DNA of 36,552 nt, from IMG/VR virus record IMGVR_UViG_3300042731_003976, positions 1-36,552 of that record. One strand, given 5' to 3'. The position numbers and the translations under genes were made by a program. The notes under the pieces were generated by a model. That model was not told where the DNA came from. It did no database searches and worked only from the letters and a program-made list of their open reading frames with translations. Source of the stretch: a virus. This document shows positions 2,245 to 36,280 of this stretch, one piece after another. Every line of letters begins with the position of its first letter. The first letter of the stretch is position 1.

Positions 2245-4820
2245 CGCTCGCCCCGCAGTGACAGGTAGCGCGCGTTGTTGAATGCCTGCATTCTTGCGCC
2301 CATCGAGAAGCGTCCAGCCCAGCCGTCAGTTGTGCCCCCGGTGTCCCAGTTCATCAACAAAAACCAAAGGCGCTGGTCGGCGTTGCTCTGTAGAAATGCC
2401 AGCGCGCCCTTCGTGCGCCAGATGGACAGCACGCGCCCGGTCGTATCGCGCGTCAGCGAGCGAATGGTAGCCTTTGGGTTGGTTGTACTATCAATGCTCA
2501 AAGTCTCATCCTGCGCCACTGCGCCGCCGTCTGTTTTCTCTGTTTTGATCTGAGCGTCTATCAACATTTCGTCAGCGGGCATTAGAATCAGGTCGTAAAA
2601 ATCAAGCGTGCCCGCGCCTTGTGAGCTGGCGTGAATCTCGATAATGAGCGTTTCCAATCGCTCGTCGCCCGTCAATACCCCCGTGCCGTCTGGGATGTCA
2701 ATGCGGCCCAGGTCTACGATTTCAGGAAAGTCAACGTCTTTCACCGACGCCGGGCTATTGCTACTGTTGTAAGTCTGGTCTCCAATGTCAATAGTGAGTT
2801 GGAGTTCAAAATCATCCACCGCCCCCGCCGTTTGATCTACGCGGGCAAATGCGTGGTACGAACCGTACCATTGCAATGTGGGGTTAATTACGCTTGAGCC
2901 AACGTCCTGAAACGTCCATTTCCACCGGCGCGCCATCGCTACCGCCCCGCCAGGAGACCAGCGCCCTATGCGCTCAGTGGGAGCCTGGGCGCTCGTGGTA
3001 ATGGTGGCGGGCGCATCAGCCGTTGCATCTATGGCGGGTATTTCTTGCTGGTCGCTACAGTTCAGATACGGCGTGAAATTTAAGCCCCGCTCGTTGGAGC
3101 GCAGAGCCATAATGACGCGCGCAATGTCAGCGTCCGTACCGTAACGCGCCTGATTGTCAAGCGCAGCGCGCAAAAGCGCCTCAATGTCGCCCAGGACTTG
3201 GCCCTCGTCTGTTTCTACGTAAGGCCAGAGAGTGGTATACACATCGCGGTTCTGTTGTGTCGGGGGCGTGGGCGCCGCCGCCGCCGTGACGATCAAGCGT
3301 ACCCAGTAGCCCGTGACGGCGTTCACGGCGTTGGCGGCCCACGTACTTTCCTCTTGCCAATGCACTGAATTGACGCCCGTGGTATCGAGCGGCTGACCGC
3401 CGTCGTCTGTATTGTCAGCCACGGTCAGCGCGGCCCACGCGCCGCCATTCCAAAATTCCCAACCATTGCCAAATGTACAGCCTGTTTGCCCGGCTGACAA
3501 ATCGAAAACGAGTGAGAAAAACGGGCCGCCGCCCGTGATACTGCTCAGCGGGCCATCTTCAATGCCAAAATATAGCACATCGTTGACTGCTGGCACAGCG
3601 GGCAAGAGATTGTACGGCGTCCCAGAACCTAGCAGATTGGCCGAAAACACGCCGCCGTCGTCATACCAGACATGTGTCAGGCCCTTGTAATTGTGTTTGT
3701 TGGCTATGTACACTTCAGCGTCGCACGTTGCGGAGCGCCCAGCGCCTTTGGATGAGATATAGGTAATGTGCAACTCTGCCGGAGCGCCTACGCCGTCCAC
3801 GATACTATAAAACTCACGGTGTATATTCAGCGGCGAGCCATTATCTTCGGCGGCAACGACGATACTATTACCTGACTGCCAATCAGGCTTGTTGATGATG
3901 AGTTGAATCAGGCTCACGAGGCTGGGCGTGTCATATTGATTTCCCATCACCCAGGCCCCAGGATTCCACGCAATGCCCGCGCTCAGGTCGCGGGCTTCCC
4001 AGTCAGTTGTCGTGGTTAGAGTATCCGTATCGGCATCATCCTGGACTTTAACGGACAGCACTGGCGCGCCGCCGTCGTTGGCCGCCGCCTCGTAGCGCAC
4101 AAGGGCTGTCGTGATGATACTGCCCTGCGGAATGGTCACGTTCTGAAAGCGCACCAGGCCGTCATATTCAAGGTTCGCAATAGCATTGCCCATATAGTTT
4201 GAGTTTGATGTCAGCGTCATGGCCGGGCTATTGTCATAACTTCCGTCATCGCTATGCAGCACGGGGTAGAAAATATCGTCGGTTTCGTGACCCTCGCCGC
4301 CCATCCCGCTGATTTCAATGCAGGCTTCGTCTCCTGGCGGATTTGCCAGCCAGTTACCGCGCTCAATACTAATGGAAAAGTTGACCATGCCTGGCGTCTT
4401 GCCAGCGAATGGCTCGCGCAAAATCTGGTCCAGGCCAGGAATAGCATAATCATAGATGAGCGCGTAGCGTCTTTCGGTCTCGCACCCCGCCTTGTCTACC
4501 CAATACACGGGAGTATTTTGCCACGCGGCAGTCCAATACTGGACGGCTTTTTCCATCAGCCGTTCAAGTTCTTGCAACTGATGCGCCCAACTGTCTTGCG
4601 TAGCGGCGCTGGCTGACAACTCTATAGTCTCAATCGCGTTGCCGCGCTGGCGATTCACCAGCCGTCGCCCCTCGGCCAGCGGGGAACTTTGCCACGTCCC
4701 GCCGCCTTTGGCCTGGACGATGGTCATGCGGCGCGATTCGACTTTGAAAAATGGCTCAAGCAATGAAACCGTGCCTGCCGCCGTACCGTCTGTAAATTCT
4801 AACAGTGGATAACTGGTCAT
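2241..4820 (-). CDS. Large distal tail (Dit)-like protein with DNRLRE-like carbohydrate-binding-type domain
   Basis: An 859-residue protein immediately downstream of the tape measure gene, where siphoviruses encode Dit, the ring linking the tube to the baseplate. Residues 1-160 look like the Dit N-terminal region (LLEFTDGTAAGTVSLLEP, then a segment ending in the FSISIERGNW strand). Residues about 185-355 follow the pattern of a DNRLRE-type beta-sandwich, with VTIPQGSIITTALVRYEA, a TTTTDWEARDL segment and a final LHITY strand. A second beta module follows at about 365-540, and the C-terminal third is also beta-rich. The extra domains suggest surface or glycan binding. The gene is coupled to both neighbours by four-base overlaps. 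The Dit role is inferred from position; the DNRLRE resemblance is from memory of the family. Confidence 0.65.
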   Translation of the reverse strand: MTSYPLLEFTDGTAAGTVSLLEPFFKVESRRMTIVQAKGGGTWQSSPLAEGRRLVNRQRGNAIETIELSASAATQDSWAHQLQELERLMEKAVQYWTAAWQNTPVYWVDKAGCETERRYALIYDYAIPGLDQILREPFAGKTPGMVNFSISIERGNWLANPPGDEACIEISGMGGEGHETDDIFYPVLHSDDGSYDNSPAMTLTSNSNYMGNAIANLEYDGLVRFQNVTIPQGSIITTALVRYEAAANDGGAPVLSVKVQDDADTDTLTTTTDWEARDLSAGIAWNPGAWVMGNQYDTPSLVSLIQLIINKPDWQSGNSIVVAAEDNGSPLNIHREFYSIVDGVGAPAELHITYISSKGAGRSATCDAEVYIANKHNYKGLTHVWYDDGGVFSANLLGSGTPYNLLPAVPAVNDVLYFGIEDGPLSSITGGGPFFSLVFDLSAGQTGCTFGNGWEFWNGGAWAALTVADNTDDGGQPLDTTGVNSVHWQEESTWAANAVNAVTGYWVRLIVTAAAAPTPPTQQNRDVYTTLWPYVETDEGQVLGDIEALLRAALDNQARYGTDADIARVIMALRSNERGLNFTPYLNCSDQQEIPAIDATADAPATITTSAQAPTERIGRWSPGGAVAMARRWKWTFQDVGSSVINPTLQWYGSYHAFARVDQTAGAVDDFELQLTIDIGDQTYNSSNSPASVKDVDFPEIVDLGRIDIPDGTGVLTGDERLETLIIEIHASSQGAGTLDFYDLILMPADEMLIDAQIKTEKTDGGAVAQDETLSIDSTTNPKATIRSLTRDTTGRVLSIWRTKGALAFLQSNADQRLWFLLMNWDTGGTTDGWAGRFSMGARMQAFNNARYLSLRGER

Positions 4821-7741
4821 GGTATCGCCTCTGCCAATACGCGTCGGATCATAGCCTCGAATTGCGCCTCGTCCATTCCGCTGTTGATATTATTGCCGCC
4901 CAGTTGAAATGTGTTTTGCGTGCTGTTGCTGACGCCGGCCATCGTGGGCGGCGCAAAAACAGGCGCTTGCGTCATCGTTGTGGCAGACGAGCCGCCAAAG
5001 TTCAAGTCGGCCTGCGTCTGCTCAATGATCTGCTGCATCGCTGCTGTTGTGGCCTCTACGATCTCGGATGCGCTGGCGTCAGCCGTTAGCCCCCCCAACA
5101 CCTCTTGAGCATCGAGGCCGTGTTCTTGTACCAGTTTCATCAAATCAAGTTGCTGTTGCAAGAGCTGCATTTGCTGCTGCGCCTCTTGAAATTCTGCAAT
5201 CCGCGCCTCTTGTTCAGCGCGTTCGGCGGCCAACCTGGCGCGTTCCGCCTCAAGCTCGCCGATTTGCTGGAGCGCCTTTTGCTGGTCCTCGAGGTCGGCG
5301 GTAGGGTCTTCAAGCGCCCGCCGCCATTGCTCTAGCGACTCATCTACTGTTTTTAGCTCCTCGTCTAGCGGCTTCAGCTCATCCTCTAGCGTCTTCATGG
5401 CCGTCTGGCCCAGGCCAGAAAGCGCGTCAAAGAGTCGGCCTGGCAATTCCTCGGCAGCCTTTGCCGCCGCCTCCATTTCACGTTCTATATCACGCGCCAC
5501 TTTTTCGGCTAGCTTTTCGGCCTCTCGCTCAGCCTTTTCTCGCTCGCGCTCTGCATCGCGTTCGGCCTCTTTGCGCTGGCGTTCAGCCTCTTTTTCGACC
5601 TCTTTGGCCGCGCGCTCGGCTTCTTTTTCAGCTTCTTTGATAGCCTCGGCCTGCGCTTTTGTAGCTTCAATGGAACCAACTTGTGTATCAATGAGTGCAT
5701 CCAATTGCGCCCGGTAGTCTTCCATCGAAAGTGTACCGCTTGCAAGTCTGGCGTTTAGCGCGTCCATGCCCTCGGCCAGCGCGCGCCCTTCCTCACCAAC
5801 CAGGCCATAATCGTCTTGAACGCCGCGCACAAGCTCTTGATATTCTTCAAGCGACAGCGCGCCCTCGTCAAGCAATTGGTTCAGGCCATCTATCGCCGCG
5901 CTTGCGGCTCCGGCGGCGTCAACGTCGCTCAGGGCTTCAGCCTGTTCCAATAATGCAACCGTGTGCTCTTGCGCGGCCTGCGCGGCTTCCTCTTGCCGCT
6001 GGCGCGTTTCCTCAAGTTTTTGTTGATAAGCTTCCTGTTTTTCTCTGCTTTCCTCAAGCGCCCATACGAGCCGTTTTTGCGCCGCCTCTTCCTCATCGGT
6101 GACAATCACGCCGTCCTCTTTGGCTTTTATCAGCGTGAACATTTTGGCATCCACTGCGGACATGGCCTCGTCAACGGCCTTTAATTCCTCAGCGGTCATC
6201 TTGATGGCATCAATGTCGGCCTCGCGGGCGGCTTTCGCTTCAATTTCAGCCCAGGTCAACCCCTGCGTAGCCTGAATTGAATCCATGATGGCCTCTTGAT
6301 TTTCGCGTTCAGCGTTAGTCAAGTTTTCCCAATCTACTTTGGATTGCTGAATGCGCTTGTGCATTTCAAATGAGGCCTGGTCCACGGCGACGATAGACTG
6401 GCCCGTCTCTTTTAGCGCCTCATTGGCAAGCTCCACCTGGGTTATGTATTGACTATAGTTTTCTGTTCCTTCCTGTATTTCCCGATCAAGCGCAGAGACC
6501 GCAGCGCCCATCGTGGCGGCAAATTCCGCGTCAGTGCCCAACATATCCCCCAGGATGCCGCCAGTGACAATATTCTTGTTGTATTTCTCGGTTGCCTGCT
6601 CCATCTTGGCGGCGATAGAGTCTATTTCCGCGCCCCACGCCGTACTTCCTGCTGTCAGGTCTTTTAGCCCGTCGGCAACTCCCGCGCCGCTCTCCCGGGC
6701 GGCGTCTTGGGCCTTTTCCATTTTTTCAAATTGTGCATCTGCCCGTTCAAGCGCAGCTACCAAAATGGCAAGCTCTACACCTAGCGCGCCCAGGGCCTTG
6801 CCAGATGTGCCCAATTTTTCAATGAGCGGCCCCAGGCCCCCGCTGAATTTTGTAGCAATGCCAAACGCGCCAGTCATGGCTGTTACCAGCGCGATAGTTG
6901 AGCTTTCCATCTCTGCGATAGTCCCAGCGGCCACCCCTGCAGCCCCGGCCAGCTTTTGTCCAACCTCAATGCGTGTGTCCTCGATCTTGGCCCGCGCCTG
7001 CTCCATTTTGGCGGCGTTGTCCTCGACTCTATCGCCTAGCGTCGCCAGGCTACGCTCGCTGGCCTCGAACACGGCTTGGGCAAACGCCTGCTCTCGCGTC
7101 ATGTCAAAATTAGCCTCTTGCAACTCTATGATGCGCTCGCGCACATAGCCCGCGCTCAGGCCGTAGGCATCGAGACGGGGAATTGAGGTATTTGCAAGCA
7201 TTAGCGCAAAGTCACTAACCCTATCGCCCGCGCTTTGCGTCTGGTCTCCCAGTCGGGTGGCCGCCTCAACTACCTTTTCCATTTCGGCGGCGTTGCCGAC
7301 AATGCCCATCTGCAACAACTGTGAGGCCGATGTCATGGCCTCCATCTTGTTGACGGTCCCGCCCGCGCCGCGCTGGAACGCTTCAAGGTTTGCAGCCGCG
7401 CCCCCGGCCTGTTCAGCAAAAGCCTCAAAGCGCGCTTGCTGGCGGTCGAAATTAGCGCCCAGTTCTGCCAGCCCCAGCCCGGAGCGGATCAACTCCTCGG
7501 CTTGTGAATAGGCTTTTTCGACAAGCTCAACGCTGGCGGCCAACTCAACGTTGCTCTGGGCCGATTCCTCAATAGACGTATCAACCCCCTTGAGCGCCTG
7601 CGACATCTGCATAGCGCCAGATTTCGCCTCGCCGGTAGCCGCCTCCATAGCATCAAGCCCGGCCAGGTAGCGGTCTAGCCCGGCTTGAAATTGTTCATCC
7701 AGGAGTACGGCTTCTAGCCCTATTCGCTCGCCGTCCGTCAT
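4817..7741 (-). CDS. Tail tape measure protein
   Basis: A 974-residue, largely helical protein. Length, composition and position right after the tail assembly chaperone pair identify it as the tape measure protein, which sets tail length and fills the tube lumen. An Ala/Gly-rich N-terminal part is followed by a moderately hydrophobic stretch (around residues 310-340), then long heptad-like helices. Around residues 670-740 there is an almost pure Lys/Glu/Arg/Ala stretch (EKEAERAAKEVEKEAERQR and onward) that may form a single stable helix, followed by Gln-rich helices. I chose the ATG at 7741 because it forms an ATGA overlap with the upstream stop and follows GAGGAG; an in-frame upstream start at 7777 would overlap the chaperone gene by 40 bases. 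At the usual 1.5 Å per residue the tail would be roughly 145 nm, which is an inference. Confidence 0.92.
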   Translation of the reverse strand: MTDGERIGLEAVLLDEQFQAGLDRYLAGLDAMEAATGEAKSGAMQMSQALKGVDTSIEESAQSNVELAASVELVEKAYSQAEELIRSGLGLAELGANFDRQQARFEAFAEQAGGAAANLEAFQRGAGGTVNKMEAMTSASQLLQMGIVGNAAEMEKVVEAATRLGDQTQSAGDRVSDFALMLANTSIPRLDAYGLSAGYVRERIIELQEANFDMTREQAFAQAVFEASERSLATLGDRVEDNAAKMEQARAKIEDTRIEVGQKLAGAAGVAAGTIAEMESSTIALVTAMTGAFGIATKFSGGLGPLIEKLGTSGKALGALGVELAILVAALERADAQFEKMEKAQDAARESGAGVADGLKDLTAGSTAWGAEIDSIAAKMEQATEKYNKNIVTGGILGDMLGTDAEFAATMGAAVSALDREIQEGTENYSQYITQVELANEALKETGQSIVAVDQASFEMHKRIQQSKVDWENLTNAERENQEAIMDSIQATQGLTWAEIEAKAAREADIDAIKMTAEELKAVDEAMSAVDAKMFTLIKAKEDGVIVTDEEEAAQKRLVWALEESREKQEAYQQKLEETRQRQEEAAQAAQEHTVALLEQAEALSDVDAAGAASAAIDGLNQLLDEGALSLEEYQELVRGVQDDYGLVGEEGRALAEGMDALNARLASGTLSMEDYRAQLDALIDTQVGSIEATKAQAEAIKEAEKEAERAAKEVEKEAERQRKEAERDAEREREKAEREAEKLAEKVARDIEREMEAAAKAAEELPGRLFDALSGLGQTAMKTLEDELKPLDEELKTVDESLEQWRRALEDPTADLEDQQKALQQIGELEAERARLAAERAEQEARIAEFQEAQQQMQLLQQQLDLMKLVQEHGLDAQEVLGGLTADASASEIVEATTAAMQQIIEQTQADLNFGGSSATTMTQAPVFAPPTMAGVSNSTQNTFQLGGNNINSGMDEAQFEAMIRRVLAEAIP

Positions 7742-7995
7742 GTCTCCTCTTTTGGCCTGCTCAAGTATGCAATCCAATCACTCATAGTGCGCTCTGATTT
7801 CCATACCTCGACCATTCTGCCGCGATGCTCGTCGCTCAATTCGTCCCAGATATGGAGTGGAACGCGCCAGGCGTAGGCCGCCCGGTCGTAGGTGAACTGT
7901 TGATTATGATACCAACTGCCTAGCGATCCGGACGCTTTTGCTAACACCTCACGAATTTGTGATAGCGTCCAGCCGTCCGATTTGTTCCATCGCAC
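7738..7995 (-). CDS. Tail assembly chaperone, downstream (gpT-like) frame, probably made by frameshifting
   Basis: An 85-codon frame between the 189-residue chaperone gene and the tape measure gene, in the position of lambda gpT. Its only early start is a GTG at 7995 with no Shine-Dalgarno sequence ahead of it, inside the 3' end of the upstream gene. The frame stays open upstream of that GTG for a further six codons, to a TAG at about 8016-8018. It is offset +1 (equivalently -2) from the upstream gene, so fusion by programmed frameshifting within roughly 7950-8015 is the likeliest way it is expressed. It contains several Trp residues and ends LSRPKEET. Independent initiation at GTG cannot be excluded. 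Confidence 0.65.
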   Translation of the reverse strand: MRWNKSDGWTLSQIREVLAKASGSLGSWYHNQQFTYDRAAYAWRVPLHIWDELSDEHRGRMVEVWKSERTMSDWIAYLSRPKEET

Positions 7996-8518
7996 GTCGA
8001 AATGTATCGGCGGCTAATTGCCGCCCCGCCTCTGTAAAATTGCTCTGACCCTGGATGAGCTTAACCAGCCAAATTAACTCCTGATTGGAAACCACGACCT
8101 CGGTTTCTATCCAGTGCATTTTGCGCTCGTCTGGGTCTTCTGGTATTTCGAGCCCGCGCCGCTCTTGTTTTTCTACCCAGCCGTTTTCGGGCGGGTCCGG
8201 CATTCCATCCAGTAGATAAACGCGCGCCGTGCGCGTCCATACCAGCCCGTTAAGCTCACGCCTTAGTTCAATATAGCGCGCCCAAAGCGCCTTTTCTTCC
8301 TCTGTGCCGTCTAGTATGGTTTTCTCGGTGTGCGTGCGCGTTTCGGTCCAATTGCCAAACGGGCCGCCGCCGCACTTGATCTCGTAGGTGGGCCGCTCTG
8401 GCATAGCGCCGTGCTCTTTTTCAAATTCTGCTTGTACCTGGGCACGCACCTTTGTAATGAGGAAATCCGACACGGGGCGCAATTCTAATTCTGTGCCGTT
8501 TTGCGTAATGTGTGTCAT
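7949..8518 (-). CDS. Tail assembly chaperone (gpG-like)
   Basis: A 189-residue protein directly upstream of the tape measure region. It is charged and mostly helical, starts MTHITQNGTELELRPVSDF and contains no membrane segment. Position, size and the overlapping second frame match the tail assembly chaperone pair (lambda gpG/gpGT) that holds the tape measure protein during tube polymerisation. Its last 46 bases overlap the next frame. Near the end a TTT followed by C could serve as a +1 slip site, and no classical XXXYYYZ -1 heptamer is needed because the partner frame is not -1. It starts with an ATGA overlap with the upstream small gene. Confidence 0.7.
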   Translation of the reverse strand: MTHITQNGTELELRPVSDFLITKVRAQVQAEFEKEHGAMPERPTYEIKCGGGPFGNWTETRTHTEKTILDGTEEEKALWARYIELRRELNGLVWTRTARVYLLDGMPDPPENGWVEKQERRGLEIPEDPDERKMHWIETEVVVSNQELIWLVKLIQGQSNFTEAGRQLAADTFRRAMEQIGRLDAITNS

Positions 8519-8895
8519 GATATTGTCCCCCAGTTGGGAGTTTCAATATCGCAGGTAAAGGCTATTTTGATCCTTAGCATGTTCCCGTTAGCCTCAACGG
8601 CATTCGGTATACGTCTATCGTCTATTTTGCAATCCACGAAACGGTGCATTAAAACACCGTTGATGCACGCCTCGTTTTTGGGGCCGCATTCGGTGTAATA
8701 AAGCTCGAACGCTTCACCATCTAGCATTGTAATTAAATCTTGTCGAAAAGGAAGCGCGCCAATCAGGCGAAAACCCATAACGGGATTGAATTGTATCTCT
8801 GACACACAAATATGATCGAGATACAGCAAGTCTCCGTTGGTTTTTTTCCAAAAAAGCGCCGTACCATCATTAGTTATTGGAAGTCCCGGTATCAT
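8515..8895 (-). CDS. Unrecognised small tail-region protein
   Basis: A 126-residue protein between the second tail-tube-like gene and the chaperone pair. I chose the ATG at 8895 because AAAGGGGA lies six bases before it; a TTG 20 codons upstream has no such support. The sequence is soluble, with a beta-rich N-terminus (ALFWKKTNGDLLYLDHI) and a middle containing YYTECGPKNEACINGVLMHR. It matches no family I can name. Its site suggests a minor tail or tail-maturation role. The Shine-Dalgarno sequence lies in the 3' arm of an 8-bp inverted repeat (8901-8941), so translation may be damped relative to the abundant tube proteins. Confidence 0.6.
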   Translation of the reverse strand: MIPGLPITNDGTALFWKKTNGDLLYLDHICVSEIQFNPVMGFRLIGALPFRQDLITMLDGEAFELYYTECGPKNEACINGVLMHRFVDCKIDDRRIPNAVEANGNMLRIKIAFTCDIETPNWGTIS

Positions 8896-8900
8896 TTTTT

Positions 8901-8941
8901 GTCCCCTTTTTGGAGTGCGGGCGACTATCCGGGAAGGGGAC
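8901..8941 (-). promoter_or_regulatory. Inverted repeat that could sequester a Shine-Dalgarno sequence
   Basis: GTCCCCTT (8901-8908) and AAGGGGAC (8934-8941) are perfect inverted repeats in the 84-base gap after the first tail-tube-like gene. In the minus-strand mRNA the second arm contains the AAGGGGA ribosome-binding site of the gene starting at 8895. The hairpin is not followed by a U-tract, so it does not look like a terminator. A role in lowering translation of the next gene is an inference. Confidence 0.4.
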
Positions 8942-8979
8942 AACCAACCCCTCAAGTCACCCGCGAACTCATACTAAAA

Positions 8980-10482
8980 CTATCCGCTGACGCTAGCAAT
9001 AAATGAGGTTGCCGCGTTCACCTCGCCAACCAAAAATGCCTGGTTGGAGTGGCAGATATTTAGCCAATTCATGCCACTGTTAGTGACTGTATTTTCAGCC
9101 ACCCACGAGTCGCCGCCGTCAATGGATTTATACACGCGCCCCACCGGTGCAGCGGTGTTTTTGAGCAAAAAGCCCGTCAGGCCATCTGGCAAAAACGTCA
9201 CGCACTCAATGGTGTCCGTGGCCGCCGCACTCAAACCAGTGCTCTTGACTTCCCAGGTCGTCGTACCGTCAAATGACATGTACAGCGGGACTGCGGCTGC
9301 TACGCCGTTGTTGGTGCCGACAATCAGCCGGTTCTCGCTGAAAACGCAGACGGTGTTAAGCGTGTCGCCGCTGCCCGTGGCCGTCTGCGCCGTCCAGTTC
9401 ACGCCGCCGTCCACCGTGCCGATTATCACGTCAGTTGCACCCACGGCATAGCCCACATTTTCGTCACAGAAATGTATGGCGCTCAAAGACGTTGCGCCGC
9501 TGGCTGATAGCGCCGTCGTTTGTTCAGCCCAACTCGCGCCGCCGTCAAGGCTTTTGTAGACCCTGCCGCCATCTGTGCAAATGTAGCCAATGGTCGTGCC
9601 GGGCACAAAAAACATACTGCCGCCGCCGACTGTGGCCTCTGCGTTAGTTGAACCGACATCAACCTGCGTCCATGTAGCCGTCGCATCATCGCTGTACTCC
9701 ACCTGCAATGGCGTAGCCGCCAGCGTGCCGCGCACGTAGATGTATCGCTCGGTGTTGGTGTCAATTTGCAAAATCTTTCCGCTGTTAACGTTCGTGCCAG
9801 CTGCAAATCCCGATGCCGGACTGGTCCAAGTCGCGCCTGTATCAGTGCTCAAGAACACGTCAGGAATAGCCGCCGCGACGGTATCGGCGCTGGCCGTCAT
9901 CACCTCACATTTCCCACGCCTCGCGCCGCAAGCCCCGGCACAGCGTTGAGCGGCTGCCGTGATGTGGTTTAGCGCCGCCGTCTCGCTGGTGGCAATGCGC
10001 GCCACGGTAAGCGGTCTGTGGTCAATGCGCCCAATCCAGCCGGTCACAGCCCACGTGTGATCGAGCAGTGTTCCCGTTTCGCGCTGCACGGGATTGACAA
10101 CAACGTCGTCAGTCAAGCGCGCGCGGCGATACACCCATGCGCGCTCGCGGTTGCCAAACACCTGCTTGCTGTCACACTTGCTCACGACGACATACAGATT
10201 AAAGGGGCACCCGTCGTCTTTGACGCGCTCCAGGAAATTCGCCGCCGGGCCTTCGTAGGACGTGATATTAAACGCCGGTTGCGCGGCAGGCGACAATTCC
10301 TCTGCCACCTGTTTGTACTCCCTGGTTACGCTATCAACACAATGGCGCGGCGTTGGCGTTGGTTTAGGATTGGGCAGATTGTCTACCATGACGCACTCAC
10401 CCAACGGGAATACCTCTGTCCCATCTCCAAATTGGATGAATACCGCACCGTCTAGGCCATCATAAAGTGTCGGATCACTCAT
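8980..10482 (-). CDS. Tail tube-like protein fused to BNR/Ycf48-like beta-propeller (copy 2)
   Basis: A 500-residue protein in two parts. Residues 1-180 carry the domain shared with the next gene upstream (FIQFGDGTEVFPLGEC, then CPFNLYV, ERAWVYR and GRIDHRPLT), in the genomic place of the major tail protein. A Cys-rich linker follows (about 181-193). Residues 200-500 contain six Asp-box-type repeats: STDTGATW (212), YSDDATATW (263), KSLDGGASW (310), GTVDGGVNW (355), MSFDGTTTW (402) and KSIDGGDSW (452). They are interleaved with Ycf48-like GYAVG strands, which predicts a beta-propeller of six or seven blades. The start at 10482 follows GGAG with good spacing. The propeller probably projects from the tail surface and binds glycans or cells. 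No sialidase catalytic set (Arg triad, Tyr-Glu) is apparent, so a binding rather than enzymatic role is likelier. Confidence 0.8.
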   Translation of the reverse strand: MSDPTLYDGLDGAVFIQFGDGTEVFPLGECVMVDNLPNPKPTPTPRHCVDSVTREYKQVAEELSPAAQPAFNITSYEGPAANFLERVKDDGCPFNLYVVVSKCDSKQVFGNRERAWVYRRARLTDDVVVNPVQRETGTLLDHTWAVTGWIGRIDHRPLTVARIATSETAALNHITAAAQRCAGACGARRGKCEVMTASADTVAAAIPDVFLSTDTGATWTSPASGFAAGTNVNSGKILQIDTNTERYIYVRGTLAATPLQVEYSDDATATWTQVDVGSTNAEATVGGGSMFFVPGTTIGYICTDGGRVYKSLDGGASWAEQTTALSASGATSLSAIHFCDENVGYAVGATDVIIGTVDGGVNWTAQTATGSGDTLNTVCVFSENRLIVGTNNGVAAAVPLYMSFDGTTTWEVKSTGLSAAATDTIECVTFLPDGLTGFLLKNTAAPVGRVYKSIDGGDSWVAENTVTNSGMNWLNICHSNQAFLVGEVNAATSFIASVSG

Positions 10483-10503
10483 TGTAACTACTCCTTTCGC
10501 GGA

Positions 10504-11982
10504 TTATCCGCTAATTTTTGCTATAAAACTTGTGCCGCCCTGGGCGTCGCCCACTACAACCCCCAAGTTGGGCTGGCAAACCGCTAATGCTTTTAAGAAG
10601 TTACTCGTAGGCGTTTCAATCAAGCGCCAGTTATAGCCACCGTTTATGCTCTTGTAAATGTTGCCTGCGCTGGCAACCACACTTTTGATAGCATATCCCG
10701 TCAGGCCATCTGGCAAAAACCGGACATCGTAGCCCACCGTCACGCCTGTGACAACGGCCCAGCGCGTGACATCAGTCCAGGTAGTAGCGGCATCGTAGCT
10801 CATGAACAAATTGCCGCCTGAACCAGCGATAGAATAGTTGCCCATTATGAGACGTTGACGGTCAAAGACATGCAAGGCCAGCCAATCCTCGCCGAGGCCG
10901 CTGGGATTATCGGTCCAGGTCTTGCCGCCATCTGTAGTAGACAAAATGGTATCGTTGTCGCCTACGGCGTATCCCACCAGCGCGTCAGCAAAATGAATGG
11001 CAATTAGCTGGTCGCCGCCGCTGGCCGTCGCCGCGCTATCCTGTTCGGTCCAGTCTACGCCATTGTAAAAATAGACTCTGCCGTCATTGCTACACATCCA
11101 GCCATGACGGCGGTCAAGGAAAAATAATGATGTGTCCTTAGGAGTTCCATCGCCGGGCGTTTCACCCACTACAGTATCCACCCACGAGCCGCCCCAAAGC
11201 GCGGTTTCAACTTGCGCCGCCAGGCCAGTTACACTCTCTCGCGCCAGAAATACTCTGCGCCCGTCTGGAGTTGGGACGCACGAAACGGCGGTTATGCCGC
11301 TGCCGGCCTGAAATCCAGATGCGGAAATGGTGATATTGTCACCGCCGTCAGTTGTGCTATAAACATCCGGCGCTGCGCCGCCTACCGTGTCAGCGCCCAT
11401 GGCGAACTGCTCACAGGCCCCTAGCGCCTCGCTGCAATCTGTAGCACAGTTGGGCGCGCAAATTCCCAGGCCGTTCAGGTCTGCCGTGCCAATTGTGGAG
11501 ATGCGCGTTATCGTCACCGGTCTATGATCCACGCGCCCGTTGCGCGCCGTGACGTTGAACGAGTGCATTGTCAGCGTGTCGGCTTCAGTCTCCACAGCAT
11601 TCTCTATGGGATCGTCTGTAAATGTGCAATCACGATAGGCCCACGCACGCTCATAATTGTCGAAAGATCGAGCCGTCCCCTTGCGCGCCTGCAACACGTA
11701 CAGATTGAACGGGCAATTTGCCTCTTTGGCCCGCTCCAAATAATGCGCCGCTTCTCTGACGTACACGGTGATGGTCAGATTGGTTGCAGCCGGGGGGCCT
11801 GGCTCAAACCCAATCTGGTTGTAATCGCGTGCGCCAATGGAACTATACACGGGACGTCTGTCAGGCGAGGGGCTGGGCAGCGTCGGCAGAACAGTACAGT
11901 CTCCCAGGTAAAATATCTCTGTCCCGTCGCCAAACTGGACATAGACAAAAGTATCGAGAGAGTGAATCAACTTTTCGTCCAC
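10504..11982 (-). CDS. Tail tube-like protein fused to BNR/Ycf48-like beta-propeller (copy 1)
   Basis: A 492-residue paralogue of the next gene downstream, sharing its whole architecture. The N-terminal tube-like domain has VYVQFGDGTEIFYLGDC, CPFNLYVL, ERAWAYR and GRVDHRPVTITRI. A Cys cluster follows (CAPNCATDCSEALGAC), then a propeller with better or worse preserved Asp boxes: STTDGGDNI (209), a short WGGSW (263), FYNGVDW (305), STTDGGKTW (348), MSYDAATTW (394) and KSINGGYNW (444). It begins at a GTG preceded by AGAGGT. The two copies are diverged along their length but collinear, so this is an old tandem duplication. Whether both proteins build the tube, or one is the tube and the other a decorating subunit, cannot be decided from sequence. 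Confidence 0.8.
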   Translation of the reverse strand: MDEKLIHSLDTFVYVQFGDGTEIFYLGDCTVLPTLPSPSPDRRPVYSSIGARDYNQIGFEPGPPAATNLTITVYVREAAHYLERAKEANCPFNLYVLQARKGTARSFDNYERAWAYRDCTFTDDPIENAVETEADTLTMHSFNVTARNGRVDHRPVTITRISTIGTADLNGLGICAPNCATDCSEALGACEQFAMGADTVGGAAPDVYSTTDGGDNITISASGFQAGSGITAVSCVPTPDGRRVFLARESVTGLAAQVETALWGGSWVDTVVGETPGDGTPKDTSLFFLDRRHGWMCSNDGRVYFYNGVDWTEQDSAATASGGDQLIAIHFADALVGYAVGDNDTILSTTDGGKTWTDNPSGLGEDWLALHVFDRQRLIMGNYSIAGSGGNLFMSYDAATTWTDVTRWAVVTGVTVGYDVRFLPDGLTGYAIKSVVASAGNIYKSINGGYNWRLIETPTSNFLKALAVCQPNLGVVVGDAQGGTSFIAKISG

Positions 11983-11983
11983 G

Positions 11984-12376
11984 CTACCTCTTTGCCGCTC
12001 GCTTTAGCATTTCCTCAAGCAGGGGATTGACCAGGACGCGCTGTAGGGCGGCGCGCGCTTCAGCGGACCCGGCAAGAAAATCACGCCTGGTGTAAATTCG
12101 CGCTGCGTACAACTGCGCGGCAAACTCATCAGCGCCAGGCCCGTCCATCCAGGTGCGCCAGTCCTCGCCATAAAGCGTGCATTTTTCAAGGTCGGATTCC
12201 GAGATTTCGTTACCCTTGAGTTTATCAACCGGGCAAAAATATCGCCTGTCATCGTGCTGGATAATGACACCCTGGTTGTCACGGTCTATGATCGCAACGG
12301 TCAGATTGCGTGCCCGCATGCTTTTCTTGCTTCGCTTAGAGCTTTCTCCATTCGTCTCTTGAATATCGTCTGCCAT
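11984..12376 (-). CDS. Unrecognised protein in the tail terminator/completion position
   Basis: A 130-residue charged protein between the gp10-like gene and the first tail-tube-like gene, where siphoviruses usually place the tail terminator. The N-terminus is basic and disordered, followed by a small beta segment (LTVAIIDRDNQGVIIQHDDR) and helices rich in Ala and Arg to the end. The ATG at 12376 has AGGGAG upstream but overlaps the preceding gene by 76 bases; an internal ATG at 12319 would reduce the overlap to 19 bases. I cannot name a family. The tail-terminator idea rests on position only. Confidence 0.55.
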   Translation of the reverse strand: MADDIQETNGESSKRSKKSMRARNLTVAIIDRDNQGVIIQHDDRRYFCPVDKLKGNEISESDLEKCTLYGEDWRTWMDGPGADEFAAQLYAARIYTRRDFLAGSAEARAALQRVLVNPLLEEMLKRAAKR

Positions 12377-12819
12377 TTTTTCTCTATCTCCCTGCTAAAC
12401 TCTCGCGCTTTAATGCCTGGGTGTGTCACGTAAGGCCGCACGGTGTCAATTGAGCCTCGCGCCCCTGCGCTTGAGCCGATGACGCCTGGAATTGTTTTGG
12501 GTGCAAACTGGCTAGAAAATGCCAGGGCTTTTTTGTTGCTCTTGCCGGTGAATATTCCGGCAAAAATTGGATACGGTCCCTTTGTGCCCTTGTCCACGTA
12601 GCCATAGATTTTATTTTCCGTGTATACCTCAACCGACAGACCGCCCGAAAGGCTGATCTGCATTTCAAACTTGACATCAGTATCCCAGGTCGCCGTCGTC
12701 TTCTTAAAGTCCGCTATGATGTCGCGCCCAGCCTTGCGCAACTCGTTTAGAAATATCGGGCGAAAGGCGTCGCGGCGTAGCGTGGCAGGTTTCAATTCTT
12801 TGATTACAAGCGCGCTCAT
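12301..12819 (-). CDS. HK97 gp10-like neck/tail completion protein
   Basis: A 172-residue protein with the pattern of the HK97 gp10 family, which completes the head-tail junction in siphoviruses. After an N-terminal helix, the central segment has YGYVDKGTKGPYPIF and KKALAF, followed by YVTHPGIKAREFS and a C-terminal amphipathic helix. The order (valine/glycine-rich strand, GT motif, KAL-F, HPG-K-REF) is characteristic. It is coupled to the upstream small gene by a four-base overlap. Family resemblance is from memory of the consensus, with no search behind it. Confidence 0.75.
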   Translation of the reverse strand: MSALVIKELKPATLRRDAFRPIFLNELRKAGRDIIADFKKTTATWDTDVKFEMQISLSGGLSVEVYTENKIYGYVDKGTKGPYPIFAGIFTGKSNKKALAFSSQFAPKTIPGVIGSSAGARGSIDTVRPYVTHPGIKAREFSREIEKKWQTIFKRRMEKALSEARKACGHAI

Positions 12820-15374: not shown

Positions 15375-16565
15375 TTATGGCGTTGTGCCGCTTGAATAAT
15401 AAATGCCGCGAAAGTCCGTTACACCGACATAGTCCGCGTCATCCCAGCCGCCGATAATATCCTCGACAGCAAACTCAATATCCCCTGTGGCAAAACTGCC
15501 CATTAGAAATGCTTGCGGAACCGTGCCGCTTACCATCTGAATGTCAGAGCGTTTCATAAACGCGACTGGACCATCCCAGCCCTGCAAACGCGCCACCGTT
15601 ACGGTCGGAACCTCAGACGGGTCAGCAAACAGATACCACGGCACATTAGCGCCGGCAAAACCGATATACGGATCAACGCGCACACCAGCCACGAATTGAT
15701 TCAGTACATTGCCGCCAGCGCCGCCGTATTGCAATAGGTCTTGAAGAATCTGCGCTGCCTGAAGCTCCAACACTTTCGGGATAACCAACCAAACTCGATT
15801 AATGTTCATCTGGTTGCCATTCACGTCCACACGCTGCATCATGGCGTTGAGTCCAATTGCCAGATTCGCAGGAGTCAAGCGCCCCGTCCCGGCATAGACT
15901 ACACCAAGAGCAACAAGCGCCGCTTGAGTTGTGGCATTGTCATACAGCGCCGATACCCACTCGTCCAACCAACGCCGCGCTGCATTCACCATGCGCGTTG
16001 GCGTCTCGCGGATCTTGCCCAGGTCATCGTTCAAGATGGTCTGCCAGCTCACATCGAACTGATCTCCATATTCCTCAACACCGTACTGAATCTGCGTTGG
16101 AGTGATGGATGTGGCGGAGAGCTGCTGTTTGTCACGCCGCTTGTACAGCGTGCCTGGCTCTGACATCCTGAACCGCTTTACATCCCGAAAGTCCGGCGTG
16201 GTATCAGGGTAGGTATAATCGCGCCAGCTGCCAACGTCGTACTGATAATCATCATAAAAGGCGCGACTCAGCGCGTCTGCAAAGTAGTTAGCGAAATGTC
16301 CCCGCGTCATTACCTCTAAAAAGGTTTCGCTATCTCGTATTTCGCGCCATTCACGCAACTCGCGCAAAGCGGCAAGATGCTGGGCGCGTTGCTGTGGATT
16401 GAGCACCTGACGCGGCGTACCTCGCGGCGTGGTACTCACCCGGCTGGTTCCAATAAGTTGCGCCAGGTCACTCTCGCTCAAATTGACCGCATGGCGCGTT
16501 TCGTCTTCATTCAGTCCCGCGTCTCCGCAGGCCGAATCGTAAACCCATCTTATTACACTATCCAT
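15375..16565 (-). CDS. Major capsid protein (HK97 fold)
   Basis: A 396-residue protein preceded by the protease/scaffold and decoration genes, with AGGAG upstream of the ATG. The first 60-100 residues are helical (delta-like). The body has features of HK97-fold capsid proteins of the Mu gpT-like kind: FRDVKRFRMSEPG, YGVEEYGDQFDVSWQTILND, then NPAN-like TPANLAIGLNAM, a VWLVIPKVLE strand, and a C-terminal part with FATGDIEFAVED and VGVTDFRGIYY. The length is usual for the family. It would form the procapsid shell with the upstream protease and scaffold. The call rests on the combination of order, length and sequence pattern. Confidence 0.85.
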   Translation of the reverse strand: MDSVIRWVYDSACGDAGLNEDETRHAVNLSESDLAQLIGTSRVSTTPRGTPRQVLNPQQRAQHLAALRELREWREIRDSETFLEVMTRGHFANYFADALSRAFYDDYQYDVGSWRDYTYPDTTPDFRDVKRFRMSEPGTLYKRRDKQQLSATSITPTQIQYGVEEYGDQFDVSWQTILNDDLGKIRETPTRMVNAARRWLDEWVSALYDNATTQAALVALGVVYAGTGRLTPANLAIGLNAMMQRVDVNGNQMNINRVWLVIPKVLELQAAQILQDLLQYGGAGGNVLNQFVAGVRVDPYIGFAGANVPWYLFADPSEVPTVTVARLQGWDGPVAFMKRSDIQMVSGTVPQAFLMGSFATGDIEFAVEDIIGGWDDADYVGVTDFRGIYYSSGTTP

Positions 16566-30135: not shown

Positions 30136-30682
30136 TGCCATCAAAGATAATTGATATGCGCTCCCCGCCGCTTGTGATATCCGTCTCTGTCTTAGGCAAC
30201 GGCTCCCGCGTCGTGATCCGCGCCAGATCATCGGCGGCCTTGAGAATCGCCGCCACATCTTTGGCCCAGGCTGGCGATAATGGCTCGATGATATAAGTTT
30301 TCCCATCGTCGCCCGCGGTCGTGCGCTTGCTAACCGGAAAGCTCAAATAGCCGCGCGCCTTTTCGCGTAGCTTGCGTGCATCCTCAAAGCGCCCGGCGCG
30401 CCACTCGTCGCAGTCCTCGCGGAATTGCTCCTCTATGCGTTGCCGCTCGTGTTCATCCCAGGCCTCGGCGCGGGGTTGCCAGTCCCACTCATCGAACGCC
30501 TTGCGCCACGAGCCGGGCGTGTAATTTGACTCTTTTTGTCCGTTTTGGACTCGCCAGACGTTGACAACGGTCAAAAGCTTGCGCCCTGGTCCAGCCTTGC
30601 GCCATAGCCCAAATCTATCGAACCATAACATCGGTTCAAGTTTACCGTCTTTGCGTTGGCGGTCCCAGGGTTGGTTACTCAT
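30113..30682 (-). CDS. terS: Terminase small subunit
   Basis: A 189-residue, Trp- and Arg-rich protein just before the large terminase, which it overlaps by 23 bases. The N-terminal part holds EPMLWFDRFGLW and ESNYTPGSWRKAFDEWDWQP followed by RAEAWDEHER, the helix-turn-helix pattern of small terminases that recognise the packaging site; a basic central and C-terminal region follows. An 8-base overlap (ATGAGTAA) links it to the glycosyltransferase gene. The packaging site (cos or pac) itself was not identified. Confidence 0.75.
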   Translation of the reverse strand: MSNQPWDRQRKDGKLEPMLWFDRFGLWRKAGPGRKLLTVVNVWRVQNGQKESNYTPGSWRKAFDEWDWQPRAEAWDEHERQRIEEQFREDCDEWRAGRFEDARKLREKARGYLSFPVSKRTTAGDDGKTYIIEPLSPAWAKDVAAILKAADDLARITTREPLPKTETDITSGGERISIIFDGNVEQDDI

Positions 30683-31523
30683 CTAATTTTACCAATTTCA
30701 TTCCGTAATTATTCACGCCTTGTGGTATTTCTACTCCTGGCTTTTTTCTAAGACGATTGTTTTTGAATGGACGATAGTCCACCTGGTGCTGCCAGCGTCC
30801 CCACTTCCAGACTATTTTCGTTACATCGGGGTGCTGGCGTTGTAACGATTTTGCCATTTCAAGACGTCCATCAAAGCATTCGTCTTGGCGATAGAGTTCG
30901 TCTGTGTTGCCGCCCTTGCTAGTCATTGTGGTGGCCTTGTCCATAGTAAAGGCGTTGAATAGAATAGTACACCATCCAGATTTTAAACATCTAAGCGACA
31001 AATCGGTGTCCTCATTGTACCGTCCACGCCATCTATGACTAACTCGATTCTGTATCAAGATACAAGAGTACACCCTCGTATTTAACCTAATAGGCGACGC
31101 TTTGTCTCTTTGAATTGCAAAGGTTATGTACTGCATTCCAGCCATAGCTACATTTGTGTACCTATCAACAAAATCCTCAATTGCTCTAAAAGTAAATCCT
31201 GTGCTAATGTGATTGTGATAGTTGCGATTTAAATAATAAAATTCTCTAATGTTGTCATCTAGTATCCAGTGTCTTTCTGCGTCGCGCTCAATGGCATGTT
31301 CCCATACCCAATTACGCGCTGGGATTGAACCTTGCCCTAAATTTGAGAATGGCAAAACCAAAATCTTGCTCTCGTCTATCGCGGCTGCATATTGGTCAAA
31401 CTCCTGCGGTTCTATTACGATATGGTAGGGAACGTTTATTTTTTCGAGCGCCTTAGATGTTGCTCTACGCTCCCATCTACCCTTAGAAATAATATAAAGT
31501 GGATATCTAAGACTATTACTCAT
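30675..31523 (-). CDS. TET-associated-type glycosyltransferase (GT-A fold)
   Basis: A 282-residue protein whose N-terminus (PLYIISKGRWERRATSKAL, IVIEPQEFDQYA, LGQGSIPARNWVWEHA) matches the pattern I know for TAGT glycosyltransferases, which transfer sugars to modified cytosine or thymine in phage DNA. The metal-binding acid pair is at DDN (89-91), and EDTDLSLR (171-178) is the usual GT-A D/E catalytic stretch. The end reads PQGVNNYGMKLV. It sits between a ParB-fold gene and the small terminase, a neighbourhood described for DNA hypermodification systems. No TET, dCMP hydroxymethylase or methyltransferase is visible in the window, so the base acceptor would be made by genes elsewhere. It looks more AT-rich than its neighbours. 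Confidence 0.75.
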   Translation of the reverse strand: MSNSLRYPLYIISKGRWERRATSKALEKINVPYHIVIEPQEFDQYAAAIDESKILVLPFSNLGQGSIPARNWVWEHAIERDAERHWILDDNIREFYYLNRNYHNHISTGFTFRAIEDFVDRYTNVAMAGMQYITFAIQRDKASPIRLNTRVYSCILIQNRVSHRWRGRYNEDTDLSLRCLKSGWCTILFNAFTMDKATTMTSKGGNTDELYRQDECFDGRLEMAKSLQRQHPDVTKIVWKWGRWQHQVDYRPFKNNRLRKKPGVEIPQGVNNYGMKLVKLDE

Positions 31524-32145
31524 AAACGCCCTTGATTATTTTAGGCATTAGCGGGTACCAGACGCTTTTAGTATTCTCCGTCAAATGTTGCCCAATCAGC
31601 CCTGCAAAACTCTCCCGATCTCCCTCGCTGGCAAAATGCACCTTGATAGTTTGATATGGACTTAAATCTTCCTGCTCAAACTCAGGCATACCTTCCCAAA
31701 GCTCGCTTACATCATCATAGTCTACCGGCTCTGCACTCAACGCCCGCACTTCCTCAAGCCAATCCTCGTCAGCCCCAGGCACGCTCTCCGGCTCATCCAG
31801 GCTATCCAAGAGCTTCCCCAGCGCATCCAGGCTGAAATGACTCTTGTCGCCAAGTCGGTTATCAGCTATTGCATAGCGCGTCGCGGTCGTGGCGTCATCC
31901 TCGACCAGAATGGCCGCCACGTGCGTCCAGCCCAATGAGCACGCCGCCCTGAGCGTACCATTGCCCTTGAGCAACCTGCCCGTGCCGTTATTAAGAGCAA
32001 CCAACGGCGTCCGTTGCCCAAATTCGCGCAGACTCGCCGCTATGCCCGCGACGTCGTGACCCTCGCGGGCATTGGCCGGGTCCAGCGCCAGACTATCTAT
32101 TTCTACCAGGAGAGGCAAAAGCGCCTCGACAACCTTGTGCTTCAT
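31516..32145 (-). CDS. ParB/Srx-fold protein
   Basis: A 209-residue protein. The N-terminal half is a ParB-type domain: LVEIDSLALDPANAREG, then RTPLVALNNGTGRLLKGNGT with LRAACSLGWTHV and YAIADNRLGD. In phages this domain often precedes a DNA methylase or sits in base modification loci. No methylase domain follows; instead the C-terminus has TIKVHFASEGDRESFAGLIG and TKSVWYP, a small segment I associate with ParB/TAGT-type loci. A DNA-binding or nuclease role linked to the adjoining glycosyltransferase is inferred. Overlaps of four and eight bases couple it to its neighbours. Confidence 0.7.
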   Translation of the reverse strand: MKHKVVEALLPLLVEIDSLALDPANAREGHDVAGIAASLREFGQRTPLVALNNGTGRLLKGNGTLRAACSLGWTHVAAILVEDDATTATRYAIADNRLGDKSHFSLDALGKLLDSLDEPESVPGADEDWLEEVRALSAEPVDYDDVSELWEGMPEFEQEDLSPYQTIKVHFASEGDRESFAGLIGQHLTENTKSVWYPLMPKIIKGVYE

Positions 32146-35346: not shown

Positions 35347-35666
35347 GCTGCCACCGCTCGAATGCCATCAGCTACCTTGCGCACGCGGGCAGCTGTTCGG
35401 TCAATATTGTCCAGGGTTTCAGGATCACCCAAGGCGGCAAAAAGATAATCGTTGTGCATTTTTTGCAGAATTTTCTCCCCGCCAATTTCAAAACCAGAAT
35501 CAACCGCAACGGTAAACAAATAAGGCCCAACCCCGTGCTTTCTTATTCCCTGTGTTGATTCTGGTGCATGTTCATGCACATGAGCTATCACAAGGCTAAC
35601 AAAGTCTGCGCTTCGTTCCCCTTCTGGCGTCCCATCGCGCCAGGGAGCTAAAATTTTGTCAGTCAT
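35343..35666 (-). CDS. Unrecognised small protein after the endolysin
   Basis: A 107-residue soluble protein from ATG 35666 (ATGA overlap with the endolysin stop, GAGAGG upstream). Begins MTDKILAPWRDGTPEGERSA, with VIAHVHEHAPES, a YLFTVAVDSG strand and a C-terminal helical segment LDNIDRTAARVRKVADGIRA. The domain is not known to me. It is in the lysis cluster by position only. Confidence 0.55.
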   Translation of the reverse strand: MTDKILAPWRDGTPEGERSADFVSLVIAHVHEHAPESTQGIRKHGVGPYLFTVAVDSGFEIGGEKILQKMHNDYLFAALGDPETLDNIDRTAARVRKVADGIRAVAA

Positions 35667-36280
35667 TTTATCGCCTCTCTCAATTTGCTGTAAAAACGTT
35701 CTTTCCACTTGTCCCAACCAGGGCAAATGGTTTGAATGTGATCTCTGTGGCCCTTGACCTGCTCAATGCTCGTCAGGCTGGGCAGATTCTCAATGGCCCA
35801 CACGCACAACCTGACAGCCGCGTCAAGCTGCACATCTGGCGGCTCAAGTATGTGCAATTTGCCAGCCAGCCCAACGCTCAGATTCGTGTTTTCGTGGCCT
35901 GTATGATCGTGCCAAAGCCCCCGATCTAGCGCCACGCACCAAAGAATTTCCCCGGTCTGCGTGATCCAGAATGTATACGGAATGGTGGGCCTGCCGCCGC
36001 CCTTGTTGATGTAATGCTCGGCTGTGGCATGAGGCGAGTTTGACAACGTGTGGTGTATCGTAACGCCGACGATCTGATCTAGTCGCCGTTGCCACCATCC
36101 ACCATCCCGATTCAGAGCCGCGTTTGTGTAAGGCCCCGGATTGGTCGCCAGTTCACCCCGAATGTCACGGTATTCCAGATTTAGCTCGTCGGGTTCTAGC
36201 CCTTCAATGTAATTCGCCAGGTCCTCGGCCAGATTGTCAGCCTGGATCGATAGCGCCTGTAGCCTCTCTAAATTATTCAT
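35663..36280 (-). CDS. Endolysin: N-acetylmuramoyl-L-alanine amidase (Amidase_2/PGRP-type)
   Basis: A 205-residue amidase that cleaves the MurNAc-L-Ala bond of peptidoglycan at lysis. Zinc ligands are visible: H76/H77 in VTIHHT, H178 in GHRDH and C186 in TICPG. An interior WHDHTGHENTNLSVGLAG segment follows the Amidase_2 pattern. An N-terminal helical extension of about 45 residues (ERLQALSIQADNLAEDLANY) precedes the domain and could tether or regulate it. There is no signal peptide, so a holin or other route is needed. An ATGAATAA overlap links it to the spike-like gene upstream. Confidence 0.9.
   Translation of the reverse strand: MNNLERLQALSIQADNLAEDLANYIEGLEPDELNLEYRDIRGELATNPGPYTNAALNRDGGWWQRRLDQIVGVTIHHTLSNSPHATAEHYINKGGGRPTIPYTFWITQTGEILWCVALDRGLWHDHTGHENTNLSVGLAGKLHILEPPDVQLDAAVRLCVWAIENLPSLTSIEQVKGHRDHIQTICPGWDKWKERFYSKLREAIK

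Follow-up and report, generated by a model that had tools for sequence, protein, structure and literature searches.

Tail-tube-like proteins with a beta-propeller, in some cases in tandem, in the major tail protein slot of an uncultured phage lineage

We identify two adjacent paralogous genes in the major tail protein slot of a phage, each coding for an N-terminal domain that is tube-like by prediction, a Cys-rich linker and a beta-propeller. Taken as a whole, we consider it probable that these are siphovirus tube proteins with outward-facing, cysteine-fastened propellers that would bind a polymer or peptide of the host, and that the two would form a mixed tube. The window, by which we mean the whole stretch of DNA analysed, is the complete IMG/VR record IMGVR_UViG_3300042731_003976 (36,552 bases). 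Repeated ends were looked for in the record and none were found, so it may be a fragment. Head and tail genes of the window lie on the minus strand.

Architecture of the two paralogues

The two genes are collinear, as had been noted from the letters of the sequence, and 40% identical end to end; their parts are as follows.

10504..11982, minus strand: tube-propeller paralogue A, 492 aa, upstream of B
11533..11982, minus strand: N-terminal tube-like domain of A (predicted), about residues 1-150, 43% identical to the N-domain of B
10507..11532, minus strand: linker and propeller of A, 39% identical to B there
11413..11448, minus strand: Cys-rich linker of A (C179, C183 and C190, placed by alignment columns)
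8980..10482, minus strand: tube-propeller paralogue B, 500 aa (AlphaFold2 mean pLDDT 85.8, pTM 0.86)
10027..10482, minus strand: N-terminal tube-like domain of B (predicted), residues 1-152, from AlphaFold2 strand and helix order set against the tube fold in the available text of PMC8718954
8983..10026, minus strand: linker and propeller of B, residues 153-500, seven blades predicted from models
9907..9942, minus strand: Cys-rich linker of B (C181 and C185 in 30 of 32 family proteins, C192 in 18 of 32)

The C-terminal part of both proteins is a propeller and not an Ig-like tube decoration. Each exceeds the curated Pfam gathering cut-off of 27 bits for PF14870 (PSII_BNR/Ycf48), at 31.8 bits for A and 39.1 bits for B, and AlphaFold2 and structure matches agree, which supports the propeller of the sequence-only reading. 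Its count of six Asp-box repeats is accurate for B, with strict boxes at residues 212, 264, 311, 356, 403 and 453, and too generous for A, which has three strict boxes and otherwise degenerate ones. A chance origin of the repeats in B can be dismissed, given that strict boxes averaged 0.017 over 5000 shuffles of the protein and never numbered more than one. The predicted number of blades is seven, not six, over residues ~153-500, a region where a second AlphaFold2 model matches seven-bladed and WD40 chains at Z about 29. The VIA list for that model holds propeller chains only, aligned mainly over residues 107-500, and the absence of tube folds from it is uninformative. For the first AlphaFold2 model, Ycf48 tops the Foldseek list. 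Like Ycf48, the pair belongs to the PF14870 family and has a predicted seven-bladed fold; unlike it, the two proteins are fused to a viral tail domain and have no photosystem II link, and identity to Ycf48 is about 15%. The best viral structure match, extending across almost the entire length at TM 0.68/0.69, is A0A1P8DJ39 (497 aa). No pattern of residues typical of catalysis or ligand binding was seen in the propeller, whose invariant residues look structural.

For the N-terminal domain, we relied on AlphaFold2 run on the full-length protein with 18 homologues, a model that superseded one built from only three sequences, in which this domain was unreliable. The model predicts strands at residues 12-17, 24-26, 31-33, 43-49, 56-63 and 70-76, a single helix at 79-90, and further strands at 94-100, 114-129 (16 residues) and 141-147. 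In the available text of PMC8718954, the tube fold is a sandwich of beta1-beta3, beta4 and two long bent strands, beta5 and beta6, with one flanking helix, and the extra domain of YSD1 is inserted between the helix and beta4. The predicted order of strands and the flanking helix fit this description, an argument from the topology of the full-length model, and assembly into rings is likewise suggested by prediction. By sequence, no known tube protein among the PHROG profiles matches the N-domain, neither paralogue matches any PHROG, and the N-domain profile gave only chance matches against PDB sequences (a receptor kinase, E 0.12). The predicted strand and helix order speaks for the earlier description of a tube-like N-domain; these searches gave no sequence match to a known tube family. 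According to the available text of PMC6669499, the tube domains of 936 phages likewise have no HHpred match to the tube structures of lambda, T4 and T5.

A conserved slot across a phage lineage

Searches of 50,697 phage records by tblastn returned no match to the 8980 protein (E<=1e-5) or to its homologues from contigs L003 and L013. In the same records, the full-length L024 protein gave only partial C-terminal matches (E 0.04 or worse) and the L037 N-domain only chance-level ones. In Methanoculleus virus L4768, which has the nearest capsid match, an HMM search for the N-domain turned up no relative. When IMG/VR was scanned with the gene pair, a single contig came up, L003, whose match is full-length at 26%; using first the capsid protein and afterwards a capsid alignment as query yielded a total of 33 contigs, 14 of which have a propeller homologue. 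The tube-propeller gene is present in all 12 contigs whose sequence downstream of the capsid gene spans 8.4 kb or more and two more are cut inside it, so that the gene is in 14 of 14 capsid-related IMG/VR contigs reaching the slot. Among the 19 without it, the nine with most downstream sequence reach no further than the genes immediately preceding the slot and the other ten have at most 2.2 kb downstream. Two scans with sub-alignments of the tube-propeller protein yielded 12 additional distinct contigs. The final set is 32 distinct proteins from 28 viral contigs, window included, after leaving out refetched contigs and L060 and L062, whose proteins match those of L055 and L052. No family member found lacks the propeller, very divergent ones included. 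The propeller-on-tube design belongs to a whole phage lineage, usually in single copy.

A BNR protein beside a transporter-like gene in L004 (Telmatospirillum) was matched by its propeller part alone and is not counted as family. The N-domain profile gave two short weak matches in 398 genomes of the phylum of L004, one of them in a frame with stops, and both were taken as chance.

The neighbours of the pair in the window are these.

15375..16565, minus strand: major capsid protein (phrog_4523, E 2e-30), the query for relatives
12301..12819, minus strand: head-tail or tail-completion-like gene, 172 aa (cluster c2, in 14 of 14 loci compared)
11984..12376, minus strand: small gene directly upstream of the tube slot, 130 aa (28% over 82 aa to an L025 gene in the equivalent position)
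8515..8955, minus strand: 146-aa protein between the pair and the chaperone-like gene (weak N-domain profile match; homologue in L054)
7949..8518, minus strand: tail-assembly-chaperone-like protein, 189 aa (cluster c5, 11 of 14 loci)
7738..7995, minus strand: overlapping ORF in the +1 (= -2) frame, a lambda GT-like arrangement (frame relation common to 9 of 11 loci tested)
4817..7777, minus strand: tape-measure protein, 986 aa (27% over 162 aa to the L019 tape measure, E 1e-7; cluster members match tape-measure PHROGs)

Genes were clustered over 14 loci (the window, L003 and 12 others). The order from the capsid gene is a small gene, one to three beta-helix genes, a connector, the completion gene, a ~120-aa gene, the tube-propeller gene, a ~200-aa chaperone-like gene and the tape measure, from which L003 partly deviates. 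The product of 12301..12819 we presume, by position and length, to resemble HK97 gp10, and 11984..12376 is possibly the tail terminator, again judging by position. The open frame that overlaps the chaperone-like gene extends 57-79 codons past the first stop in the nine loci that have it, and such a layout is known for tail-assembly chaperones, as in lambda G/GT. The tape measure of the window has no tape-measure PHROG match at E<=0.1; those of relatives do in all four cases tested, and that of L028 matches annotated tape measures of cultured phages. In 24 of the 28 contigs an ORF of 566-1433 codons begins 0.7-2.2 kb downstream of the tube-propeller gene, and the remaining four stop within 2.0 kb downstream of it.

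Wherever the slot is reached, the gene thus lies between the completion and terminator genes on one side and the chaperone pair and tape measure on the other, which upholds the assignment to the major tail protein position and rules out, by synteny, a captured host gene outside the virion module. Since single-copy loci have no other ORF in the slot, the tube-propeller gene very probably codes for the tail tube protein. The same synteny bears on the idea that the proteins are not tube proteins but propeller-carrying nozzles, tailspikes or receptor-binding proteins of the kind seen in short-tailed phages or phi11. Several named viral structure matches are indeed fibre, baseplate or BNR-repeat proteins, and a match in Vibrio phage VP2 is located after the tail fibre gene of that phage. 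However, in all sufficiently long contigs the gene precedes the chaperone-like pair and the tape measure, outside the distal tail module, and the relative L033 has a separate distal propeller protein; we regard such a role as highly improbable. The receptor-binding protein of S. aureus phage phi11 reportedly uses a propeller domain in host recognition. It resembles the pair as a phage tail protein using a propeller, and is said to differ in being a baseplate protein of few copies, outside the tube and with another propeller type.

Further propeller or BNR-type proteins, without the tube-like N-domain, occur in tail modules of relatives (L033 15343-18138, L064 7154-8176, L003 13808-15970), which suggests that propellers are employed at more than one site in these phages. 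Between capsid and connector lies a family of ~300-aa genes in one to three tandem copies per phage (window 14006-15010; L018 12233-15282). Both L018 copies tested match right-handed beta-helix PF13229, and nothing in Pfam matches the copy in the window; the products are perhaps capsid or neck spikes. Elsewhere in the window, a glucosyltransferase-like gene (phrog_842, named for HMC glucosyltransferase) adjoins a ParB-like gene (30675-31523 and 31516-32145), which raises the possibility of DNA base modification. An N-acetylmuramoyl-L-alanine amidase (Amidase_2; 35663-36280), likely the endolysin, suggests a bacterial host with peptidoglycan.

Cysteines, duplication and divergence

Cysteine conservation was counted within two alignment columns, in the numbering of the 8980 protein, over the 32 proteins. 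The Cys-rich linker noted from the sequence is present (C181, C185, C192) and forms part of a larger conserved set with C30 (29/32), C92 (30/32) and C103 (29/32). C30, C92, C103, C181 and C185 are all absent from L031 and L065, a two-member clade; further losses are single, of C30 in L019 and of C103 in the 10504 protein. The joint loss of five cysteines points to one site, a metal site or disulfides, that would join the tube domain and the linker.

Tandem pairs are found in four of the 28 contigs (the window, L035, L051 and L052). The occurrence of a propeller on two adjacent tube genes, which had been singled out from the sequence as unusual, is thus real in the window and is the exception in the family. 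The window pair are mutual nearest kin (support 100/99), as are the L035 pair (100/100), and separate N-domain and propeller trees also join each of these pairs. In L051 and L052, first copies group together and second copies group together (100/100 each), so this duplication is older than the split of those phages and both copies have been retained. The groupings of the four pairs imply at least three origins of duplication.

The 146-aa protein at 8515..8955 may be a tube paralogue without a propeller. Among the 45 window proteins it ranks third against the N-domain profile, after both paralogues, and the match is weak (E 0.0027; E 0.0065 with a larger profile; P 0.0014 and probability 18% in HMM-HMM comparison). 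It has a homologue in the equivalent slot of L054 (6624-7040). We considered whether one paralogue alone builds the tube, with the other or the 8515 product serving as end rings or adaptor, or whether the 8515 product is the bulk tube protein. The resemblance to the N-domain and the L054 homologue speak for such an arrangement, as does the sufficiency of a single copy in most relatives. Yet 8515-like genes are absent from all contigs searched beyond L054, and the propeller gene is always present; we judge this arrangement rather unlikely. The separate L051/L052 lineages are compatible with a tube of one paralogue and with a tube of two, and their maintenance suggests that both copies are useful.

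Divergence is uneven along the protein. Between recent relatives the propeller is often the faster-changing part, with 85% identity there versus 93% in the tube domain for L018/L019, 66% versus 82% for the L035 pair and 68% versus 89% for the L051/L052 first copies; the second copies of L051/L052 show the reverse (79% versus 74%). In deeper pairs, for example L033/L039 (54% versus 28%), it is the tube domain that has diverged further. Conservation of the propeller above the tube domain between some relatives fits a fast-evolving adhesin poorly, and the pattern does not resemble that of a simple hypervariable adhesin.

These comparisons also bear on the main functional rival of a host-binding role, namely that the propellers are a structural sleeve which stiffens or protects the tube through contacts with neighbouring subunits and rings and binds no host. 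The faster change of the propeller in the recent pairs, second copies of L051/L052 apart, counts against a sleeve, and Asp-box propellers commonly bind glycans or peptides. Its presence in even very divergent members and its higher conservation in some pairs fit one, and the extra domain of YSD1 is reported, in the available text of PMC8718954, to stabilise the tail ring. On balance we find a purely structural sleeve unlikely.

Proposed working of the tail and its relation to known systems

We propose that both genes code for major tail proteins of a long-tailed siphovirus. The N-domains of these proteins would form hexameric rings piled along the tape measure, and each subunit would bear a seven-bladed Asp-box propeller on its outside, held to the tube domain by the conserved five-cysteine cluster. 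Tail length is about 1.5 angstrom per tape-measure residue. With ring heights of 38-43 angstrom, as given in the available text of PMC8718954, a 986-residue tape measure would correspond to roughly 35-39 rings and 210-230 subunits and propellers. We infer that the propellers would provide a low-affinity, high-avidity hold on a host-surface polymer or peptide, so that the virion stays close to the cell until its tail tip reaches the receptor, and that the second paralogue would make a mixed tube with two propeller surfaces. A fuller picture of that tube is possible but doubtful: two subunits, perhaps together with the 8515 product, a sleeve of ~200 propellers with two kinds of surface over the full length of the tail, a five-cysteine metal or disulfide clamp, and subunits that are not interchangeable in L051 and L052. 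The clamp would then set the position of the propeller and might be redox-responsive.

Exposed C-terminal Ig-like domains are described for the tube proteins lambda gpV, T5 pb6, YSD1_22 and JBD30 (available text of PMC8718954 and PMC11445458). As far as those accounts extend, the pair shares with them the slot and the sequence of an N-terminal tube domain followed by a C-terminal domain on the tail exterior. It differs in carrying a ~35-kDa seven-bladed propeller in place of a ~10-kDa Ig-like fold, in the conserved cysteine cluster joining the parts, and in comprising two tandem paralogues. The nearest tested precedent is TpeX of lactococcal 936 phages, which according to the available text of PMC6669499 is a BppA-like carbohydrate module placed on part of the copies by programmed frameshift, shown to bind host cells and able to reach about 180 copies. 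In both systems the major tail protein bears a sizeable additional module, and it is by this precedent, where host binding was demonstrated, that we suggest a many-copy, low-affinity host hold here. Unlike the TpeX module as described there, the propeller shares the reading frame of the tube domain in all copies. None of the titles and abstract openings searched, a scope outside which preprints and most subscription papers fall, describes a propeller on a tube protein. Exposed C-terminal tube domains, Ig-like or of the TpeX kind, are thus already known from the available parts of these sources; a full propeller in that place did not turn up in the literature searched.

The finding touches the question of why tail tubes carry exposed extra domains, a question for which the known examples are mostly small domains of Ig-like fold. 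In the present case, uncultured phages of a widespread lineage have a full propeller on what is very probably the tube protein, and the gene has been duplicated repeatedly. Relatives with one or two copies, and with the cysteine cluster kept or lost, offer a natural comparison that bears on host binding versus tail stabilisation, and the propeller itself could act as a probe for the host.
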